This document shows, in pieces, positions 3,213-28,595 of a stretch of DNA of 46,955 nucleotides (positions are counted from its first letter, which is position 1; the number at the start of each line of letters is the position of its first letter). The position numbers were made by a program, and so were the translations under genes. Source of the DNA: a virus; IMG/VR virus record IMGVR_UViG_3300021178_000019, positions 1 to 46,955 of that record. The stretch is one strand, 5' to 3'. A model generated the notes under the pieces. It did no database searches and was not told the origin of the DNA. It saw nothing but the letters and a program-made list of their open reading frames with translations.

Positions 3213-3379
3213 TGCGCGACACCGAGCCGCCGCCTCCGCCCTGGCGACCGCTCGGGCCGGCTATCCCGCGAGCCACGCCTGCACCTCCGAAGCCGACGAC
3301 GCCAGCCCGTGGAGAGTACGGGGTGACGACGGGGCCGGATGGGCGGCTGCAGACGACGAAGACGCCCCATAGCTCCTGA
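3212..3379 (+). CDS. Small proline-rich protein
   Basis: 55 residues, start overlapping the stop of the preceding gene (tgATG). One third of the N-terminal 30 residues are proline. No recognised domain. Its 3' two-thirds are covered on the opposite strand by the C-terminus of the HNH-like gene at 3261-3800, which seems to have extended into it. May be a small virion or lysis accessory protein; function unknown. Confidence 0.45.
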   Translation: MRDTEPPPPPWRPLGPAIPRATPAPPKPTTPARGEYGVTTGPDGRLQTTKTPHSS

Positions 3380-3800
3380 CGCGAGTGGTGAAGGTCTTCG
3401 CGACCGTCCAGCCACGTGACAGGCGCCGGAGCGCGGTGGGATGGCTGATCCCCAGCTCCTCGCACCACGCCGCCAGGCATTGCGTTCGGCCCTTGAATTT
3501 CAAGTTCTGATTGTCCCAGCGGTTGCGCCCTTGTTCCTTCTTCGTTGCCCAGCGGCAGTTATCTGCGTGGTAGCCCTCACCGTTGCGGATGCGCTCGACG
3601 GTCAAGCCCGGCGGTCGCGGCCCCATGTCGTCAATGAAATTCGCGAAGGTGTGCCAGCGCACGCAGACCCGGATTCCTGCTCCACCGTACCGCGCGTATG
3701 ATCCATTCCGAGGCTGGTAGCAGCGACTTAGCATTGCGCGCCAAGTGCTGTATTCGGACGGGTAGATCAGCCTCAGCGAGCCTGCATATGTCTTTGGCAT
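3261..3800 (-). CDS. Phage HNH-like endonuclease (homing type)
   Basis: 179 residues. Belongs to the widespread stand-alone phage family with W-x2-M-x2-RCY, YGGAGIRVC, W-x-F-NF-x2-DMGPRP, and NCRWATKKEQ motifs (residues 20-90), followed by a helix-turn-helix-like DNA-binding part (TQCLAAWCEELGISHPTALRRL). A paralogue lies at 6314-6760. The last ~36 residues (Ser/Ala/Pro-rich) have no counterpart in the paralogue and are antisense of the proline-rich gene. It is the only leftward gene in the lysis module, consistent with a mobile insertion. Nuclease activity is inferred from the family. Confidence 0.75.
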   Translation of the reverse strand: MPKTYAGSLRLIYPSEYSTWRAMLSRCYQPRNGSYARYGGAGIRVCVRWHTFANFIDDMGPRPPGLTVERIRNGEGYHADNCRWATKKEQGRNRWDNQNLKFKGRTQCLAAWCEELGISHPTALRRLSRGWTVAKTFTTRVRSYGASSSSAAAHPAPSSPRTLHGLASSASEVQAWLAG

Positions 3801-6313: not shown

Positions 6314-6760
6314 CTATCTCCTTTTAAACGGCGTGGTCATTGTCTTTTCAACACTCCAACCACGAGCCATTCGACTCTCTAGGCAACCAGGCACGCAACC
6401 CAACTCCTTCTCCCATTGCCGAAGCGCCTGGGAACGCCCCATCCATTCGATGGGTTTTCTGGCCTTGGTTTTGAACGGTGCGCGATTCAGAACCTGTTCC
6501 GAGGCGGTGGCCCATCGGCAATTGCCTGGCTCGTAGTTGCCCCTCCCGTCTGGGAATCTGTCGATGGACGTTCCGGCCGGGCGAGGCCCCATGTCAGCCA
6601 GGAAATTCGCGAAGCTGTCCCATCGCGTGCATACGCGAATGCCGGCATCGTGATAGGCGGCGCGAATCTTTCCCTTGGAAGTCGGCCCGCAGCGATGCCT
6701 CATCGCGATCCAGGAGTTATAGGCGCCCGCAACCTCGGGGCTCAGATGATTCATCGGCAT
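6314..6760 (-). CDS. Phage HNH-like endonuclease (homing type), second copy
   Basis: 148 residues from ATG 6760, overlapping the upstream stop. Shares W-x-AMRHRC, AGIRVCTRW, FANFLADMGPRP, GNYEPGNCRWATASEQ and a C-terminal HTH-like region with the gene at 3261-3800, but ends normally at FKRR. Sits between the HNH gene at 6760-7203 and an operator-promoter. Likely selfish or recombination-stimulating; activity inferred from family. Confidence 0.75.
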   Translation of the reverse strand: MPMNHLSPEVAGAYNSWIAMRHRCGPTSKGKIRAAYHDAGIRVCTRWDSFANFLADMGPRPAGTSIDRFPDGRGNYEPGNCRWATASEQVLNRAPFKTKARKPIEWMGRSQALRQWEKELGCVPGCLESRMARGWSVEKTMTTPFKRR

Positions 6761-7203
6761 CAAAATTCCAATTCTTCTTCGGGCTCATAGAAATCCACGG
6801 ATGGGCGCGCGAGCGATCGCTGATAGTCCCGCTCCTTTCCGTTTCGGATGTTCTCCGATTGCGTACAGGGAATTAGGTGACTCGGTCGCCGGCATGATGG
6901 CTCATGACAAACGTGGTCGAGCTGCAGCCCGCTCGAACGAAATTCAATGTACGCTAAGTATAGATCATCCCGCTCCATCGGCCCCAGATGATCGAGGAGC
7001 CACGCCAGGATATGCGCGGAAAGCCGCTTCTGGCGGCCATCCAGCCCGCGAATCCGCAAGTCCAGGCGTCGATAGCCGTACCGGCATGCATAGCCGTCCT
7101 GGCCCATCCAGCAAGGCCCCAGCTTCTCGTCTCGGCCATACCATTGATCCGCCTCGATGGTTCCGGCCTTCAACGTCTCCGCAGTGATCGGCGCCGGCTT
7201 CAT
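6760..7203 (-). CDS. HNH endonuclease, small zinc type
   Basis: 147 residues from ATG 7203 (ATGA overlap with the gene before). The C-terminal half carries the HNH motif: LDH at 95-97, Cys at 99 and 104, PSHL near 107-110, and SENIRNG at 116-122, typical of the HNH_3-like phage nucleases. The N-terminal part (W-x-GYRRLDLRI) is likely its DNA-contacting region. Translationally coupled to a second HNH-like gene downstream. Confidence 0.8.
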   Translation of the reverse strand: MKPAPITAETLKAGTIEADQWYGRDEKLGPCWMGQDGYACRYGYRRLDLRIRGLDGRQKRLSAHILAWLLDHLGPMERDDLYLAYIEFRSSGLQLDHVCHEPSCRRPSHLIPCTQSENIRNGKERDYQRSLARPSVDFYEPEEELEF

Positions 7204-8465
7204 TCCGGATTGTTCCGATCCGATAGGGTGCCATTCCAAAATTCATCCACTGCAGCCCCTGAAGCAGCCTTCAGGGTGGCGATGCCGTGGTGTCGTTCGG
7301 CGAATCGGACGCCGGCCTCGAACCAATCGAACGGGTCTTCGGACTCGTAGCAAGGCCGGCTCAGCTCGTCGATCACCTCATCGGCGGTCAGCGGCTCCCT
7401 CGGCTCGACGGTCGCTGTAGGTGCAGCGGCGGCATCGATGTGCAGTCCTGGCGGCAGGAAGCCCAGCGCTGTCGTCAGACGCTGCGCAAGGTCTCGGGGG
7501 ATGCCGTGGCTCGCCTCCTCTCCCTTCGCGGGCACTGGAGGGGTGGACTCATGGTCGTCGAACGCCAGAAAATCTCGGTACGTTTTCGACTCCTCGCCCG
7601 CACGCGGCGGGTAGAGTGGCGTCGAATACTGCGCAGCGACGATCTTGCCCGGTTCCCCTTGGTGGTTGCGGGCATTCTCCATTTGGGCAGCCGAGAGAAC
7701 TCGCCCTTCACCGTCAGCCCAGGCCATCGGCTCCTCGCCCGCACGCGGTGCCACAGGAGCGGCGCGGACAACGGCATTGAACGCTTCGAGTGGTACGAGG
7801 GCGAATCCGCTGGGTGACTCACCGACGTTCGTCTCGTAGGCCATGTTCGCGATGGCGGCGGCGATGGCGCGCACGCCGGCCGCCACACCCTTGTGGTGGT
7901 TGCCGGGGCGCTCGCAAACAATGGCGGCGTCTTCCAGCGTTGCAGCATTGGGCGCCATCGGCTCTCCCACTGCCCGGGTTGCCACAGGAGTGCGAGACTG
8001 CTGATCGGCGACGAGCGCGGCCAATCCCTCTTCAACGCTGAGCTGCGATGCGAAGTCGTGTACGCCAACTGCCTGGGGTGCCGTGGAGGTGGGCGTCGAA
8101 AGCCACACGTCACGAATCACGAAACGATCTTTGAGGGTGGCTGGATCGGGCTCTGTTCCAGGGCCGTAGAACATCACGGGCTCTAGGCCGTCTTCGTCTT
8201 GTCGAAAAAGCACCTTTGCCACCGGCTCTCCCGGCACCGCATCGACAGGAGGCCGAGCAGCGAGAGAGTCGGCATTGGCGATGTCCCATTCGGTGATGCG
8301 ATTCCGAACGTCGGCAATCTCGGCGATCACCTTGGCGCGGTTGTCGTAAGGTGGAACGCCAGGGCCAAAGCGTTGCAGCTTGGTCAACGCCTGGATCAGC
8401 TCGGCGCATTCCTCGATAAGGTTCGTGGCAGGGTCGCCGATGTGGGCGAAGTCGGGATGGGTCAT
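7200..8465 (-). CDS. MazG-like domain fused to repetitive phage protein
   Basis: 421 residues. Residues 13-60 look like an all-alpha NTP pyrophosphohydrolase core: NLIEECAELIQALTK gives the EExxE motif and EIADVRNRI gives the ExxD motif that bind metal. The remainder has repeats of the type EEPMAWADGEG...YSTPLYPPRAGEE, found in Ea22/ead-like phage early proteins, and a C-terminal helical segment. Starts by ATGA overlap with the PP-loop gene. May hydrolyse abnormal or signalling nucleotides; only the motif supports this. Confidence 0.6.
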   Translation of the reverse strand: MTHPDFAHIGDPATNLIEECAELIQALTKLQRFGPGVPPYDNRAKVIAEIADVRNRITEWDIANADSLAARPPVDAVPGEPVAKVLFRQDEDGLEPVMFYGPGTEPDPATLKDRFVIRDVWLSTPTSTAPQAVGVHDFASQLSVEEGLAALVADQQSRTPVATRAVGEPMAPNAATLEDAAIVCERPGNHHKGVAAGVRAIAAAIANMAYETNVGESPSGFALVPLEAFNAVVRAAPVAPRAGEEPMAWADGEGRVLSAAQMENARNHQGEPGKIVAAQYSTPLYPPRAGEESKTYRDFLAFDDHESTPPVPAKGEEASHGIPRDLAQRLTTALGFLPPGLHIDAAAAPTATVEPREPLTADEVIDELSRPCYESEDPFDWFEAGVRFAERHHGIATLKAASGAAVDEFWNGTLSDRNNPE

Positions 8466-9271
8466 AGCGAGCATTCGTCGCACGCCGCAGCGCGCTCCTG
8501 TTCTTGGTGAATCTTCACGACCTTGCGTGCATCGGCCCACCAGCGCTGGGGCGAGACTTGCTCGGTCGCGGGGACGCCAGCGGCTTTCATCGTGGCGAAC
8601 TTCTCTTCCATGTCCTCCAGGAACACGGGGCCGCTTTCGTCGTGGTGGATGGCGTAGCCGATCGTCTCTTCAGCCCACTTGGCCTTGAGCCAAATGTCCG
8701 GCCTGGTGCAGTACACAATGTACCAGTGCTGCCAGCCAGCCTTGAGGCAGCCGACGCAGTTGCCGTGCTTGAACACTGCGTAGGTGTTGGGGCGGCGAAT
8801 GCCGATGTCCTCGGTGGCGAAGATCGTGCGCTGGCCCCAGAGCGCGACAGGGAAGTCCGTGCGGTAGCCCTGCGCGGCCATGATGCTGCTGCGCCGCTGG
8901 ATACGCTTCGTCTCATGGGGATCGAAGCCGTAGTAGAGGATGCACTCGCCCTGACTGGGCAACCACTTCATGAACGGCCCCGTCTTCAGCCGGTTTGTGC
9001 ACAACTCCGTACCGTTACCCACCTTGAACGCACCGGCCTCGACGCAGACATCAAACTGGTCGAACTCCGCGTTGTGGTGGTTGACGTAGGTCACCGGCAC
9101 GCCCAGGTAATCGGACACCTCCTGCTTGAAGCGCTTGATGTCCGCACCCTCGACGCTGAAATGGATGTCGTGGTTGACCAGGATGCAGTTCTCGGCCCCG
9201 AAACGACGCACGCCCTCGATGGCTGCGACGGCCGATGTGTGGCCGCCGCTGTAGCAGAAGATATGCTTCAC
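8462..9271 (-). CDS. PP-loop protein, PAPS reductase-like
   Basis: 269 residues from GTG 9271 (GTGA overlap, SD AGGGG). The adenylating PP-loop SGGHTS is at residues 8-13. TELCTNRLKTGPF, YYGFDPHE and GNCVGCLKAGWQHW add conserved Cys pairs seen in a phage subfamily of adenine nucleotide alpha hydrolases. Such enzymes activate a carbonyl or sulfate with ATP; in phages possible roles are DNA or tRNA modification. No dnd or queuosine partner genes are visible, so the substrate is unknown. Confidence 0.75.
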   Translation of the reverse strand: MKHIFCYSGGHTSAVAAIEGVRRFGAENCILVNHDIHFSVEGADIKRFKQEVSDYLGVPVTYVNHHNAEFDQFDVCVEAGAFKVGNGTELCTNRLKTGPFMKWLPSQGECILYYGFDPHETKRIQRRSSIMAAQGYRTDFPVALWGQRTIFATEDIGIRRPNTYAVFKHGNCVGCLKAGWQHWYIVYCTRPDIWLKAKWAEETIGYAIHHDESGPVFLEDMEEKFATMKAAGVPATEQVSPQRWWADARKVVKIHQEQERAAACDECSL

Positions 9272-9918
9272 GGCATCCACCCCTCGCCAGGGGTCTGCGC
9301 GGAGAGGGCGGCTTGCCAGACTTCCCAACTGTCACGCCAATGGGTGTCGGCGTATTCGCCTTCGAGGGGCGATCCGGGGCTGCACATACGTGGAGTCTCG
9401 CCGTAGCCTTTCCCAGACATCCACGTCTCGAAAGCCTCGCGCTCGCCCCGGCTCTGCTCCGCTCCCACAGCAGCCCTCGCCTGGGTTGCAGCCTCGCAGG
9501 CTTTCCAGCCCTCGACGTACTTCAGGCTCGCCTCGTGCGAATCGCGGCAAGACATCGGAATGTCCAGCCTCGCCTGGGTTGCGGCAGCGAGGCGGCCACG
9601 CGCTTGCCAGCCGCACCACGCGTTGTTCACGGCGCTGTTGCAGTAGTGCATGTTCTCGCCTCGGCCGAACGTGCTCAGGTCGCCGCAGTCCTTGCGGATG
9701 TACGCCTCAAATTGCTCCCGCTCGCTCGCCACGTCAGGGCTCGCAGCACTACGGGCGCGGTCTTGGATGATGGCGGCGCGGGCGTAGTCCTGCATTTCTT
9801 CGTCCGTGTAGTTGAGCGAATTGCCGCGAAAGTCGGTCGTTTGATCGCCGCATTGCGCGGATTCAGGCAGCTCAGGCAAGCTGATCGGCTCGCCCTGCGG
9901 GGTGGTGGTGTCAGACAT
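9268..9918 (-). CDS. Unknown early protein with duplicated Trp motif
   Basis: 216 residues; SD GGAGG six bases before ATG. Two similar segments are visible: EREQFEAYI...NNAWCGWQAR (about 66-108) and EREAFETWM...WRDSWEVWQAAL (about 158-207), a pattern common in accessory early proteins of temperate-type phages. No catalytic motif. Coupled to the genes on both sides. Confidence 0.6.
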   Translation of the reverse strand: MSDTTTPQGEPISLPELPESAQCGDQTTDFRGNSLNYTDEEMQDYARAAIIQDRARSAASPDVASEREQFEAYIRKDCGDLSTFGRGENMHYCNSAVNNAWCGWQARGRLAAATQARLDIPMSCRDSHEASLKYVEGWKACEAATQARAAVGAEQSRGEREAFETWMSGKGYGETPRMCSPGSPLEGEYADTHWRDSWEVWQAALSAQTPGEGWMP

Positions 9919-21320: not shown

Positions 21321-21613
21321 CACCGCAGGAATTCGTTGAAACGCTCGATCCGCCCGAGACCCTGCGCCACGTGGCAATCGTCGCGAGCATGCCACTCTAT
21401 GCCGTGTCTCAGTGGATGGCGGCCGTTCGTCACCATGCGGGGATCAAGTTCGACAGCTACGCTTTTCGCATCAACCCGATGCGCCTACATGGCTTCATTG
21501 ATGGCGTGGCAGAGCCGCGTCTGGCGATCACATATCACGATCCGATGGAAGGACAGCGACCGGATAATGTTCCATCGGCGTCAGCCATCATCATCACGGA
21601 GATCCAGCTTTGA
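21317..21613 (+). CDS. Unknown middle-gene protein
   Basis: 98 residues, ATGA overlap. PQEFVETLDPPETLRHVAIVASMP then strands. No motif or family recognised. Tight overlaps on both sides indicate one translational unit. Confidence 0.5.
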   Translation: MTPQEFVETLDPPETLRHVAIVASMPLYAVSQWMAAVRHHAGIKFDSYAFRINPMRLHGFIDGVAEPRLAITYHDPMEGQRPDNVPSASAIIITEIQL

Positions 21614-22188
21614 TCGAAGAGACGCCTGTCGAGCGCAAGCGCCGAATCGAACGTGCGCGATATCACGCCAACAAAGAGGCGCGCAAAGCCCAAGTAGCTG
21701 CCTACAGGGCCGCGAACCCTGATAAATGCAAGGCCCTGCGTGAAAAGTGGCGTCACGAGAATCCTGAAAAGTGGGATGCGTTCCACAAGCAATATCGCGA
21801 TGAGAATCAGGAGAAGCATCGGATCTATTGCCGCGAATGGCGTCAGAAAAATAGAGAGCGCGCGGACGCGAAGATCGCCGAATGGCATGCGGCACATCCG
21901 GAGTGGAAGCGGATAAAGGTTCAGAATCGGCGCGCGCGAAAGATGGCGAGCGGCGGACGACTCTCCCGTGGTCTTGTCCCAAAGCTACTGGAGGCGCAGG
22001 GATGGCGCTGCATTGGCTGCGCATGCGATTTGCGGAAGAGTGGCTACCATCTAGATCACCAAATGCCCCTGGCTCGCGGAGGCGCGCACGCCGACGAGAA
22101 TATGCAAATGCTATGCCCCCATTGCAACTGCACCAAGGGCGCGCGAGATCCCGTTGAGTGGGAGCGGGAAATGGGCCTGAGGCCATGA
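21610..22188 (+). CDS. HNH endonuclease with N-terminal helical repeats
   Basis: 192 residues from TTG 21610, accepted because GGAG sits 8 bases upstream and TTGA overlaps the stop. Residues 15-100 repeat a charged helix about every 15-20 residues (YRAANPDKCKALREKW, YRDENQEKHRIYCREW, WHAAHPEWKRIK). Residues 130-175 are an HNH core: C134-x2-C137, LDHQMP with D149-H150, N164, C169-x2-C172, NCTKG. The repeats likely form a DNA-clamping helix array. Confidence 0.8.
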   Translation: MIEETPVERKRRIERARYHANKEARKAQVAAYRAANPDKCKALREKWRHENPEKWDAFHKQYRDENQEKHRIYCREWRQKNRERADAKIAEWHAAHPEWKRIKVQNRRARKMASGGRLSRGLVPKLLEAQGWRCIGCACDLRKSGYHLDHQMPLARGGAHADENMQMLCPHCNCTKGARDPVEWEREMGLRP

Positions 22189-22583: not shown

Positions 22584-23045
22584 ATGACGTGGAAACGCCC
22601 TCCTGCGCGGCCGGCAAAGCAGATTGACGGCGACATAGCACCTCGCCCCACGGCGCGCTCCATCGGCCTGGCCGCGGCGCTCGCCGTCGTGATGCCGGCC
22701 GCGGCGCCCGCGCGTATTCCGAAGTCGCCGCACTCGGTCGACGCGATGGGCCGCAAGATCCGCGAAAGCGCGCGCGGCGAGGACTGTGACATCCGAATCC
22801 CAGGTGGCTGCAATTTCGACAACGCCACCACCGTCTGGTCGCACTTCCCCGGCCTGGCCGGAGGTCGAGGGATGGGCCTCAAGAGCTTTGATCCGTGCGG
22901 CGTCTATGCGTGCTCATCGTGCCATGACATCGTGGATGATCGCGCGCCAGCGCCGGACGGAATGACGCGACAGGACGTAATGCTGTGCTGGCATGAAGGG
23001 CACCTCCGTTCGCTGATCAAGCTGCATCATAAGGGCCTGATTTAG
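22584..23045 (+). CDS. DUF1364-type putative nuclease
   Basis: 153 residues. Residues 58-150 follow the DUF1364 pattern: GRKIRESARGEDCDIRIPG-C, TVWSHFPG, GRGMGLKSFD, YACSSCHDIVDDR, WHEGHLRSLIKL. Conserved Cys/His suggest a treble-clef HNH-related fold often next to NinB. A G-rich run at 22569-22578 supplies its SD. N-terminal 50 residues are Ala/Pro-rich. Confidence 0.75.
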   Translation: MTWKRPPARPAKQIDGDIAPRPTARSIGLAAALAVVMPAAAPARIPKSPHSVDAMGRKIRESARGEDCDIRIPGGCNFDNATTVWSHFPGLAGGRGMGLKSFDPCGVYACSSCHDIVDDRAPAPDGMTRQDVMLCWHEGHLRSLIKLHHKGLI

Positions 23046-23350: not shown

Positions 23351-23379
23351 TTGACCGAGACTGTCGGAACACCGATACT
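23351..23379 (+). promoter_or_regulatory. Rightward promoter with operator before structured region
   Basis: TTGACC (23351-23356), 17 bp, GATACT (23374-23379); core CCGAGACTGTCGG at 23355-23367. Start expected near 23386. No long gene follows for about 600 bases. Confidence 0.8.
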
Positions 23380-23385
23380 AGATTC

Positions 23386-23820
23386 AACGGACGAAAGAGG
23401 TCGGCGCTTTGCACCCTGCGAAGGTGGGCGCCGGAAGTCGCAGGTTCCTCATAGTCCAGCATGAGCATTGACGATCAGGCGGATTCGATTTCCGCTCGCT
23501 TGCCGAGATTTGGAGAAGGACGAGGTTCGATCCCTCGACTGGTCGAAAGACCTTCGGTAGTTCCCTGACGGGCAGGGCGGCATGGCGGCCCGGAAAGACG
23601 GGCATTTAACAACTGAGAGAGCGAAATGAATGGTGGTCGCTGGTGCAGACTGACGATTGCATCGGCGCATAGCTGGCAACACGATCCGCCCGAACCCAGG
23701 GCGCCAGCGGTGGAGGCGAAAGCCTGTGAGGCGAAGTGATCGAGGAACAACGAGCGGTATGTGACTGTCAATCCTCGCTCGGGACGCCCTTGAAGATCCG
23801 GCTTTGGCCGGGCCTTCAAG
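23386..23820 (+). ncRNA. Candidate structured RNA under Cro-type promoter
   Basis: No convincing long reading frame. Perfect or near-perfect hairpins in series: 23402-23433 (CGGCGC/GCGCCG enclosing CACC/GGTG), 23479-23495 (GCGGA/TCCGC), 23521-23537 (CGAGG/CCTCG), 23541-23552 (GGTC-GAAA-GACC), 23588-23603 (GCCCG/CGGGC) and the strong 23789-23820 stem. Could be a regulatory RNA or a very long leader of the gene at 23986. Known RNA families not recognised. Confidence 0.5.
23626..23739 (+). CDS. Possible 37-residue peptide inside structured region
   Basis: ATG 23626 with GAGAG six bases upstream; codes MNGGRWCRLTIASAHSW... ending AKACEAK. It could be a leader peptide or chance. No family. Confidence 0.3.
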   Translation: MNGGRWCRLTIASAHSWQHDPPEPRAPAVEAKACEAK

Positions 23821-23954
23821 TCTGGAACTCTAGACGGTCACTCCCATGCAAACGTCGGCGGCGCCAGCCGACATAGCGGGTAGCACCGAGACGAAGGCGA
23901 ACGCGCGTTCTCCGTGGATGGCGGCGCGCACCGGCTGGGCTCCAGACTTGAAGG
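23789..23954 (+). promoter_or_regulatory. Alternative-pairing RNA element (switch candidate)
   Basis: CTTCAAG at 23814-23820 can pair with CTTGAAG at 23789-23795 (closing a second CCGGC/GCCGG stem), or, as part of the 14-base CCTTCAAGTCTGGA (23813-23826), with TCCAGACTTGAAGG (23941-23954). The two pairings exclude each other. GTCGGC/GCCGAC (23854-23872) nests between. Lies just before the SD of the gene at 23986. Confidence 0.5.
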
Positions 23955-23985
23955 AAATTCCCCCACCCCTCCAACAGGAGAAACC

Positions 23986-24309
23986 ATGTCCCAAGTCCGT
24001 ATCATCATCGCCGCCGCTCTGTCGGCCATCGCTTCCGGCGCCGCCTCGGCCGGTTTCGTCGTCACCCTCACCGACGCCAGCGGCGCCACCCAATCCCAGG
24101 ATCTGCCCGTGGAAACCTTTCCCTCCCCCGCCGCCGATGGCACGTTCACCGTGGAAGCGGATTTCGGTGGTGTCGGGAGCGGCGCCTTCTCGGGCACCGT
24201 GCAATCCATCGATCCGAACCGCCAGCCGCTGGGCTCGGCCGTGTCCTTCAGCGGCACGGCCTCGAACCTGCAGCCCGTCCCGGTGAGCGTGACGGTCGCG
24301 TTCTCCTGA
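23986..24309 (+). CDS. Unknown protein with signal-like N-terminus
   Basis: 107 residues; AGGAG (23976-23980) makes a strong SD. N-terminal MSQVRIIIAAALSAIASGAASAGF resembles a weak signal peptide but also fits a beta strand and loop; the rest is beta-rich, Thr/Ser/Gly-rich (VTLTDASGATQSQD, TFTVEADFGGVGSG, PVPVSVTVAFS), like an Ig-type or decoration fold. Isolated between two structured regions. Could be a secreted, cell-surface or virion decoration protein. Confidence 0.55.
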   Translation: MSQVRIIIAAALSAIASGAASAGFVVTLTDASGATQSQDLPVETFPSPAADGTFTVEADFGGVGSGAFSGTVQSIDPNRQPLGSAVSFSGTASNLQPVPVSVTVAFS

Positions 24310-24315
24310 TCCATC

Positions 24316-24548
24316 GGCCGGCGCTGACCGGCCACGCATGAGCTAGACTGTTCCCTGCCGGGCCTTTGGGCTGGTGCAACCCCGAGAAGTCCCTGGGCTT
24401 TGCAGGGTGTGGGAGGGGGAAAGCTCCTGCATGTTTCATGCGTGTACGCGGATCGCACGGCAAAGCACGATCCGCAACAGGCAGGCCGCCAGCCGTGCGC
24501 AAGACGGGCACGGTAAGGGCGAGAGCTACGGCTGGCGGGGACACCCCG
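24316..24548 (+). ncRNA. Second candidate structured RNA
   Basis: Perfect helices: GGCCGG/CCGGCC (24316-24333), CCCTG/CAGGG (24391-24407), GCATG-ttt-CATGC (24429-24441), GCGGATCG/CGATCCGC (24448-24475), an 11-bp CCGCCAGCCGT/ACGGCTGGCGG (24486-24496 with 24528-24538) and CGGGG-aca-CCCCG (24536-24548). CCGTGC/GCACGG (24493-24513) competes with the 11-bp helix. No reading frame explains it. It precedes the gene at 24600, which lacks an SD. Confidence 0.5.
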
Positions 24549-24599
24549 TCCGCCGCCTCATGGTGGCCGCTCCTTCCTTCAACCCGACCAGACCACGCC

Positions 24600-26727: not shown

Positions 26728-27261
26728 ATGGGACGTCCGCGCAAGCTCACAGAAGAACACCTCCAGCGACTCATGGAGCGCCACATTGCGGGCGAGTCGA
26801 TCCGCAAGCTGGCGGCCGAGATCCCGATGGCGGAGAGCAGCCTGCGCGCTTTGATTTCCGCGCAATCCGCGCAGATAAAAACCGTTGCAAATCAAATGGT
26901 TAACGCGGAAAGGGCGTTTCAGAAACTGCCCCTTTCCGCGCAGATCACGACGAAAACCATCGCCGCGCGCCTGATGCGGATGATGGACAACATGGCGTCC
27001 GGCGCGGAGCTGGCGTCCGGCTCCTACATGCGCCTGATGATGGCGCACAACGCCATGGCGGCGAAGGTGGACGAGGCCGAGCCGATGACGGCCAAAGGCT
27101 CGGCCGAGGCCCTGGTGGCGATGGCGGCCATCGGCAAGATCGCGAACCAGGCGGCCGAGATCCCCATTCGATTCGTCGCGGCCATGAAGGACGGGATAGC
27201 GGGCGAGGAGGACGAGGAGGGCGGAACCGTGATCCGAGTGGTCGGCGGCCTGCCGGACTGA
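26728..27261 (+). CDS. Terminase small subunit
   Basis: 177 residues. N-terminal HTH (GRPRKLTEEHLQRLMERHIA, SIRKLAAEIPMAESSLRALI) followed by a helical oligomerisation region, the usual small terminase plan. It recognises packaging DNA and feeds it to the large subunit, whose start overlaps its last base. TAGAAT lies 6 bases before the ATG, so a leaderless transcript is possible. Confidence 0.75.
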   Translation: MGRPRKLTEEHLQRLMERHIAGESIRKLAAEIPMAESSLRALISAQSAQIKTVANQMVNAERAFQKLPLSAQITTKTIAARLMRMMDNMASGAELASGSYMRLMMAHNAMAAKVDEAEPMTAKGSAEALVAMAAIGKIANQAAEIPIRFVAAMKDGIAGEEDEEGGTVIRVVGGLPD

Positions 27262-28595
27262 TGTTCGCCTTCAAGCGCTCGAACGCCCTCGCCACGGAGA
27301 TCCACCTTCCGATCTGGCACCCAGGCCAGGTGCGGGTATGGAACGACCGGGGGCGCTTCAACGTCGTCCGGTGCGGCCGGCGCTGGGGCAAATCGAAAAT
27401 GCTGATCACCCTGGCCGCCGATACGGCCATGAAGGGGAAGGTGTCCGGCATCTTCACGCCCGAGGCGAAGCAGTGGCGCGAGCCGTATGACGAGCTGAAG
27501 GAGCGCCTGGAGGCCATCACCAGGCAGTCCGACGCGAACAAGGGCCGGATTCGCCTGACCACGCGCGGCCCGGACAAGACCGGCGGCAAGATCGATTGCT
27601 GGCACACGGACGACAACTCCCTGGCGGGTCGCGGCCCTTCGTACCACCGGATCCTCGGGGATGAAACGGCGTTCGCGAAGACCGGGCAAATGGTCAGCGT
27701 GTGGAACAAGAATCTCCGACCGACGCTCCTGACCACGCGCGGGGAAGCCTGGTTCTTCTCGACGCCCTACGGCGACGATCCTGATAATTTCTTCTGGCAG
27801 ATTTGCAACGATCCGGCGCTGGGCTTCACGCACCATCACGCCCCGTCGTCGGACAGCCCCTACTGTCCGCCCGACGAGCTGGAGCTGATCCGCCTGGGGA
27901 CTCACCCGCTGGTCTTCAAGCAGGAATACCTCGCCGAGTTCGTATCCTGGAAGGATGCCGCGTTCTTCAAGCTGGACTATTTCCTGGGCGCCGATGGCCT
28001 GCCTGTGGGGATGCCGACGAAGTGTGATCTGGTCTTCGCGGTCATGGACTGCGCCGTGAAGTCGGGCACCGACAACGATGGGACGGGCGTCCTGTATTGC
28101 GCCTATACGGCTGTCGGCCGCGAGCATAAGCTGGTATGGCTGGACTACGAGCTGCACTCCATCAACGCGGCGAACCTGGAGTACCTGGCCCCCAAGGTTC
28201 TCGCCAGGTGCGAGGAGCTGGCGCGCGAGTGTGGCGCCCGCCAGGGCTCGGCCGGCGTCCAGGTCGAGGACGCGGCCGGCGGCGCCGTTCTCCTGCAGAA
28301 GGCCACGGCCGAGGGCTGGCCCATGTACGCGATCCCGTCCGACCTCATGGCGAAGGGGAAGGACGAGCGCGCCATGATCGCGGGAGGCCCGGCCTACAAG
28401 GGCGATTGCAAGATCAGCGAGCCCTGTTTTAACAAGGTGATCGAGTGGAAGGGGCGGAGCGCGAACCACCTCGTCCACCAGCTCACGAGCTTCCGCATTG
28501 CCGACAAAGACGCCTACAAGCGCGCCGACGATTTGCTGGACTGCGCTACATACTCCATCGCTCTATCCCTGGCCGACGCCCGCGCGCTCGGATAG
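27261..28595 (+). CDS. Terminase large subunit
   Basis: 444 residues. ATPase: Walker A-like GRRWGKS (39-45), Walker B ILGDE (131-135), coupling motif FFSTPYGD (165-172). RNase H-like nuclease: D263 in FAVMDCAVK, VEDAAGG near 330, and D428-429 in RADDLLD. It pumps and cuts DNA at the portal. Length is at the short end for the family. Neighbours (small terminase, portal) confirm the assignment. Confidence 0.9.
   Translation: MFAFKRSNALATEIHLPIWHPGQVRVWNDRGRFNVVRCGRRWGKSKMLITLAADTAMKGKVSGIFTPEAKQWREPYDELKERLEAITRQSDANKGRIRLTTRGPDKTGGKIDCWHTDDNSLAGRGPSYHRILGDETAFAKTGQMVSVWNKNLRPTLLTTRGEAWFFSTPYGDDPDNFFWQICNDPALGFTHHHAPSSDSPYCPPDELELIRLGTHPLVFKQEYLAEFVSWKDAAFFKLDYFLGADGLPVGMPTKCDLVFAVMDCAVKSGTDNDGTGVLYCAYTAVGREHKLVWLDYELHSINAANLEYLAPKVLARCEELARECGARQGSAGVQVEDAAGGAVLLQKATAEGWPMYAIPSDLMAKGKDERAMIAGGPAYKGDCKISEPCFNKVIEWKGRSANHLVHQLTSFRIADKDAYKRADDLLDCATYSIALSLADARALG

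Follow-up and report, generated by a model that had tools for sequence, protein, structure and literature searches.

Modular structured RNAs downstream of an operator-like promoter in a lambda-like phage genome

One locus of a phage genome carries at least four predicted structured RNA modules which are supported by covariation, have no counterpart in Rfam and have not been described so far. The genome is the 46,955-base IMG/VR phage record that was analysed over its whole length (hereafter, the window), and the modules, termed D1, T, D3 and RNA-2, follow a sigma-70-type promoter in the order promoter-D1-T-X-D3-ORF107-RNA-2, where X is a hairpin and ORF107 an ORF of 107 aa. They represent new RNA families of a broad kind, the large structured phage RNAs, that is already known, while their cassette-like shuffling looks unusual. 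To our knowledge, few RNAs of this kind are on record, and what they do is unknown. No description of the RNAs of this locus was found in the open-access literature, subscription papers and preprints being outside the search. A preliminary description had singled out positions 23386–23985 as a single 600-base element, possibly a non-coding RNA or else a large leader with a regulatory function, of a class not yet known. This assignment is supported by the compensating changes seen in homologues, by the lack of an Rfam match and by a recurrent operator-promoter. The notion of a single element could not be maintained: there are several modules instead, and the whole feature is larger than this interval, reaching RNA-2, a further strong domain outside it at 24333–24573.

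Promoter, operator and the structured interval

The gene order of the window is lambda-like. A RecE-like exonuclease and an annealing protein are encoded leftward; divergent promoters near 16.7 kb (16712/16763) are followed by ParB-like and replication proteins; NinB, a YbcO-type HNH protein and an 85-aa ORF stand before the structured stretch, then come small ORFs, and TerL (27261–28595) is followed by portal and capsid proteins. The locus shares its map position, after the nin-like genes (here NinB and the YbcO-type HNH protein) and before the terminase genes, with the lambda-type late leader (pR′ region, with 6S RNA between Q and the late genes). The lambda late leader is short and untranslated. 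Here, in contrast, no Q gene was found, the promoter is operator-like, and the leader is strongly structured, modular and several times as long. The window also has several mutually unrelated HNH-type endonuclease genes (3261–3800 and 6760–7239 on the minus strand, 21610–22188 and 22584–23045 on the plus strand) and, at 8462–9328 on the minus strand, a gene of the auxiliary metabolic or host-takeover type for a protein resembling phosphoadenosine phosphosulfate reductase (PHROG 424).

The promoter lies on the plus strand at 23351–23379 and consists of TTGACC (23351–23356), a 17-base spacer and GATACT (23374–23379). It is one of two promoter-like matches between 23000 and 28600 and the sole convincing one nearby on the plus strand. 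A similar promoter is found at the equivalent place in all eight relative types, with weaker hexamers in G004, G003 and L051. Between the −35 and −10 hexamers is the operator-like palindrome CCGAGACTGTCGG (23355–23367, strand not assigned), which has counterparts at five other promoter-like sites, namely 6274(−), 14139(−), 16278(−), 16712(−) and 16763(+); the operator-promoter family CCGANACTNTCGGA..CCGATACT is accordingly present at six window sites (6274, 14139, 16278, 16712, 16763 and 23350), and its 16763(+) member drives a transcriptional regulator of PHROG 409. The operator-promoter noted in the preliminary description is real and its motif recurs at five other promoter-like sites of the phage, with repression remaining an inference. 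We read the six sites, the RNA promoter among them, as one putative regulon under a common repressor, whose gene was not identified. Because the operator is common to other phage promoters, this promoter would probably be silent in the lysogen and become active upon induction or infection.

The interval 23386–23985, which stops one base short of an ORF led by a Shine-Dalgarno sequence (23986–24309), is nearly free of genes, as had been claimed: apart from a 46-codon GTG frame, it holds no plus-strand ORF of at least about 40 codons with a plausible ribosome site. The hairpins reported there were also recovered, for instance GGTC-GAAA-GACC within 23538–23558 and a 33-base double stem, CCTTGAAGATCCGG..CCGGGCCTTCAAG, at 23788–23820. 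Taken alone, this single-sequence evidence is weak and only mildly above chance, amounting to no more than a "perhaps". Eight perfect hairpins are present against a mean of 3.9 in shuffled sequences (P = 0.027), as many are found in 18 of 155 sliding 600-base windows of the same phage, and the folding z-score against shuffles is −2.2 on the plus and −1.35 on the minus strand. The decisive evidence for the predicted hairpins, and what makes them convincing, is the comparison with relatives.

Pieces of the stretch were found in seven distinct relative types in IMG/VR, all of them metagenomic phage contigs. Through the upstream 85-aa ORF we reached L002 (contig 3300029951_000040, G004). Its leader differs from that of the window apart from one stretch of 250 bases, lying outside the interval, that shares 75% identity with window 24332–24585. 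Short conserved words then gave G001 (3300030020_000105; L004, L045) and G003 (3300032261_000399; L007), as well as L048, L050, L062, L065, L049, L051 and L073, and the modules were recovered separately by BLAST and covariance models. The covariation controls were made without phylogeny correction and the sets are small, from 2 to 8 sequences. Compensating changes in homologues and an Infernal search of Rfam had been proposed as checks. The former are present in D1, T, D3 and RNA-2; as for the latter, the whole window has no match to any Rfam 15 family at the gathering threshold, and at E ≤ 10 the window, G001, G003 and L050 give only sub-threshold matches at chance level.

Searches further afield added nothing to this set. 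GenBank phages and plasmids gave no useful match by near or distant DNA similarity. An 18-base word of D3 had seven scattered matches in genome contigs, none with more of the RNA, and these were judged to be due to chance. The RNA-2 model found no match among sampled bacterial genomes, 399 from the phylum of G005 and 369 from the class of G045, a weak result as there was no positive control among them. Neither RNA-2 nor D1 was detected in those terminase relatives at 42–48% identity (L008–L039), and the Yersinia phage, that were scanned, and many of these contigs stop short of the locus. The annotation of Rac-SA53 (L044), which infects E. coli and whose terminase is related, lists toxin genes, and its locus was excluded.

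Structure and covariation of the modules

D1 (23389–23457, plus strand) is a predicted pseudoknot domain at the start of the transcript. It is composed of P1 (GGAC/GTCC, 23389–23392/23454–23457), P2 (TCGGCGC/GCGCCGG, 23401–23407/23428–23434) and P3 (CTGCG/CGCAG, about 23416–23420/23439–23443). P1 and P3 covary in the alignment. Furthermore, a helix of 7–9 bp joining the P3 loop to the segment that precedes P3 occurs at corresponding places in all six distinct D1 sequences (P between 0.0005 and 0.06 each against shuffles), which indicates that P2 and P3 form an H-type pseudoknot. Changes on both sides affect 10 of the 15 pseudoknot pairs, using hand-assembled arms, and none of 500 shuffles scored as high. 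The figure of 100% paired is inflated because the arms were picked for complementarity; the both-sided changes are not explained by arm selection alone. The minimum-free-energy fold of the single sequence proved wrong in this 5′ domain, since the relatives show GGCGC/GGCGCC and CTGCG/CGCAG paired at the same time, in a pseudoknot.

The D1 model scores 75–88 bits at ten loci, every one at the promoter. All nine records searched whole contain one D1 at this place, starting about ten bases past the −10 hexamer in eight of them, while the copy in the ninth, L049, is a 17-bit stub. The core is identical in the window and L073, phages whose proteins are 20–35% different and whose operators differ. 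A type III toxin-antitoxin RNA, for which tandem pseudoknot repeats beside a toxin gene are expected, was rejected in view of the single D1 per genome and of the search with defence-system models described below.

This arrangement recalls the put RNAs of phage HK022. Termination is suppressed in HK022 by put RNA bound to the β′ zinc-binding domain, and an untranslated RNA of 600 nt is otherwise expected to be exposed to Rho. The leader could be mainly a cis antitermination device in which D1 binds the elongating polymerase that has just synthesised it, allowing transcription of the late genes without Q, the other modules being passengers or elements in the path of the polymerase; we consider this a possible, though doubtful, explanation. 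D1, 70–90 nt long and beginning some ten bases past the promoter, resembles in place and size putL, which measures about 70 nt, consists of two stem-loops and is located just downstream of PL (PMC9378689). Like the put RNAs, D1 is a structured element directly downstream of a phage promoter under repressor control (inferred for D1), and no antiterminator protein was found. Each genome has one D1, always at this promoter. Neither Q family (PF06530, PF03589) scored above the cut-off in the window, G004, G755, G756 or G001 with controls that worked, a single sub-threshold match of 12.5 bits being seen in G001. However, the D1 model has no match in the HK022 genome and there is no sequence relation; D1 is a single-copy pseudoknot at a late-gene-facing promoter, whereas HK022 carries put, with its two stem-loops, on both early promoters. 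Moreover, our promoter/terminator scan found no plus-strand intrinsic terminator downstream, L049 has only the stub, and why T, D3 and RNA-2 are conserved would be left unexplained.

The T module (23472–23604, plus strand) comprises two hairpins resembling tRNA T-arms, GCGGA-TTCGATT-TCCGC (23479–23495) and CGAGG-TTCGATC-CCTCG (23521–23537), a GNRA-capped stem (23538–23558) and two further hairpins (23563–23577 and 23588–23603). Window 23472–23617 is 86% identical to L050 1379–1523, of which L048, L062 and L065 have near-copies, so that only two distinct T sequences are available. Of 15 substitutions in the structured core, ten make up five compensatory pairs and no pair is broken; none of 200,000 random placements gave as many double hits. 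The GAAA loop of the capped stem is GCAA in the relative, retaining the GNRA type. T was also considered as a coding sequence and rejected, as by inspection the substitutions preserve the structure yet alter the encoded residues of the open frame. A tRNA or tmRNA was likewise dismissed, since ARAGORN found none in the window nor at the T module of L050 or L048. The alignments to tRNA-Sec are weak (20.6 and 16.6 bits, where 47 would be needed against the 20.6). Genes for tRNA-Gln, tRNA-Tyr and tRNA-Leu are located at L050 3260–3556, about 1.7 kb downstream of its T module.

Hairpin X (23752–23780, plus strand; GAGCG..CTGTCAA..CGCTC) lies directly 5′ of D3 and has look-alikes in L049, L051 and L007, noted by eye without statistics. 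D3 itself (23785–23956, plus strand) contains the double stem at 23788–23820, a long-range stem pairing 23813–23830 with 23937–23954, and the conserved core GACATAGCGGGTAGCACCGAGACGAAG (23870–23896), and is present in every relative but G004. Its long-range stem shows compensatory changes in 5 of 18 pairs over five distinct sequence types. This count was made on hand-extracted arms; the MAFFT alignment, in which one relative is gapped, yields almost no covariation. The CTTCAAG strand can pair either upstream, in the 23788–23820 hairpin, or downstream, in the long stem, and this potential is retained in most relatives, which suggests a possible switch or strand exchange. D3 is not called an attenuator because no terminator follows. 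Between D3 and RNA-2 lies ORF107 (23986–24309, plus strand), preceded by the Shine-Dalgarno sequence AGGAG. It has homologues at the equivalent place in L007 and L049, the other relatives having different ORFs or none, and it has no PHROG match and no above-threshold Pfam match.

RNA-2 (24333–24573, plus strand) is a multi-helix domain of about 240 nt, with a closing stem (24333–24341/24436–24444), a second stem (24484–24491/24561–24568) and hairpins at 24391–24407, 24408–24431 and 24448–24475; helices 2 and 3 are weak and were left out of the claim. Seven distinct sequences score 150–253 bits with a model built from the same sequences, and RNA-2 occurs as a single copy per record in 7 of 11 records. 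Changes on both sides are found in 25 of 68 pairs, a level that none of 500 shuffles reaches, and 90.6% of the cells are paired as compared with 33–41% when the partners are slid by 1–3 columns. The cells, which are not independent, include 47 G-U and 7 A-C, an A-C being a G-U on the opposite strand; this excess points to a plus-strand RNA rather than a DNA cruciform.

These results bear on the simplest explanation, that the locus is nothing special: a decayed tRNA or gene relic with chance hairpins, or a site acting at the DNA level (cos, pac or origin). The T-arm-like hairpins, the weak tRNA-Sec alignments and a single-sequence hairpin count barely above chance could be taken in this sense. 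It is contradicted by the compensatory changes with their slid and shuffled controls, by the G-U bias to one strand, unexpected for a DNA cruciform, and by the absence of a tRNA in the ARAGORN search, and we regard it as very improbable.

Mosaic arrangement among related phages

The modules are added, lost or re-ordered from phage to phage, with differing small ORFs between them. In G001 the order is promoter-D1-M2-D3-RNA-2 with no ORF between; in G004, promoter-D1-short ORF-RNA-2; in G003 and L073, promoter-D1-D3-ORF-RNA-2; in the L050 type, promoter-D1-M2-repeat-rich ORF-D3-T; in L049, promoter-stub-ORF-D3-ORF-RNA-2; and in L051, promoter-D1-ORF-D3-shortened RNA-2. RNA-2 is absent from some phages, and T, located between D1 and D3 in the window, is found 3′ of D3 in L050, L048 and L065, at the usual place of RNA-2. 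The repeat-rich ORF between M2 and D3 (L050 401–1105; also in L048 and, on the minus strand, L065) encodes a long series of Ala alternating with Asp/Asn/Tyr (DADAYANA..) from a GACGCC/TACGCC/AACGCC repeat whose length and letters vary among near-identical phages.

The alternation of modules with short ORFs in one operon raises the question of whether the modules are ordinary leaders, each controlling the next small ORF in cis, in a riboswitch-like manner or at the level of translation. The two alternative, attenuator-like CTTCAAG pairings of D3 would fit, as would the finding that T (in L050) and RNA-2 (in G001 and L051) precede the related ORFs MNKQQSQAFASV.. and MNKKSAQAFAAV... By inspection, however, the ORFs that come after RNA-2 fall into at least three unrelated families across phages, so that the constant association with one downstream gene family that marks a riboswitch is not met for RNA-2; D3 precedes different ORFs or, in G001, none, no terminator follows its putative switch, and the Shine-Dalgarno sequence of the ORF at 23986 lies outside the conserved stems. 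We therefore find such a role quite unlikely. Rather, the variety of the ORFs following RNA-2 implies that the RNA modules act as cassettes in their own right.

The modules could also jointly form one large ornate RNA comparable to GOLLD or ROOL, an RNA-only complex of the lytic cycle. The length is similar (about 570 nt without and 1.2 kb with RNA-2), T-loop-like and GNRA motifs are present, the origin is phage, and the modules of G001 are contiguous with no ORF between. GOLLD (RF01998) is a large structured phage or prophage RNA, ROOL (RF03087) a pseudoknot-containing phage RNA of about 600 nt with unknown function. Both are often found near tRNA islands (PMC12286853), and one relative, L050, has its three tRNA genes 1.7 kb downstream. 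GOLLD has a conserved 3′ and a more variable 5′ part, and its linkers may hold other genes such as tRNAs (PMC12286853). Neither family is matched here, even at E ≤ 10. Cage assembly is a feature of GOLLD, and ROOL has one universally conserved fold, whereas the present locus is a mosaic with modules missing, occurring apart or in differing order, and with small protein ORFs, having their own ribosome sites, interrupting the chain, which is hard to fit to one fold. Because the modules come and go, a single molecule of this type is less likely than put-like antitermination, and we hold it to be unlikely.

Proposed role of the leader

We favour, with confidence that is evenly balanced in the absence of transcript data, an untranslated leader of a rightward transcript which yields stable structured RNAs and whose 5′ pseudoknot acts in cis. 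The stretch would be the untranslated 5′ part of a phage transcript that probably runs toward the terminase and structural genes, transcription from the 23351 promoter being inferred. The RNA would be built from the exchangeable modules D1, T, D3 and RNA-2, with the small ORFs as extra cassettes. D1 probably works in cis, by protecting the 5′ end or by helping polymerase through the long untranslated stretch; this, too, is an inference. T, D3 and RNA-2 are most likely stable trans-acting RNAs, retained in the leader or cut from it, since the neighbouring gene varies among phages while the RNA persists; both the trans role and the processing are inferred, and no cut site has been shown. A more speculative proposal, offered only tentatively, is that of a mosaic RNA locus of temperate phages in which independently inherited structured RNA cassettes, exchanged in the manner of morons, ride on a repressor-controlled leader whose 5′ pseudoknot replaces Q as a protein-free antiterminator of late transcription. 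Should D1 antiterminate, RNA-only antitermination would have a second, unrelated example in phages, and the expression of late genes in the absence of Q would be accounted for. As natural variants delete, replace and re-order the modules, function can be tested one module at a time.

As for the proteins of the locus, defence-system models gave no match for four window ORFs, of which two belong to the region and two lie just downstream, nor for two of three relatives' ORFs; one weak ZorA-like match (E = 0.005) was obtained in this search of window and relatives' ORFs. Finally, long leader repeats of the GGCTACGGCGACGGC type occur at L049 1060–1314 and L051 3103–3342 (minus strand), where one frame reads (GYGDGS)n and an ORF beginning MKQIIIAQRGW.. 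lies ahead.
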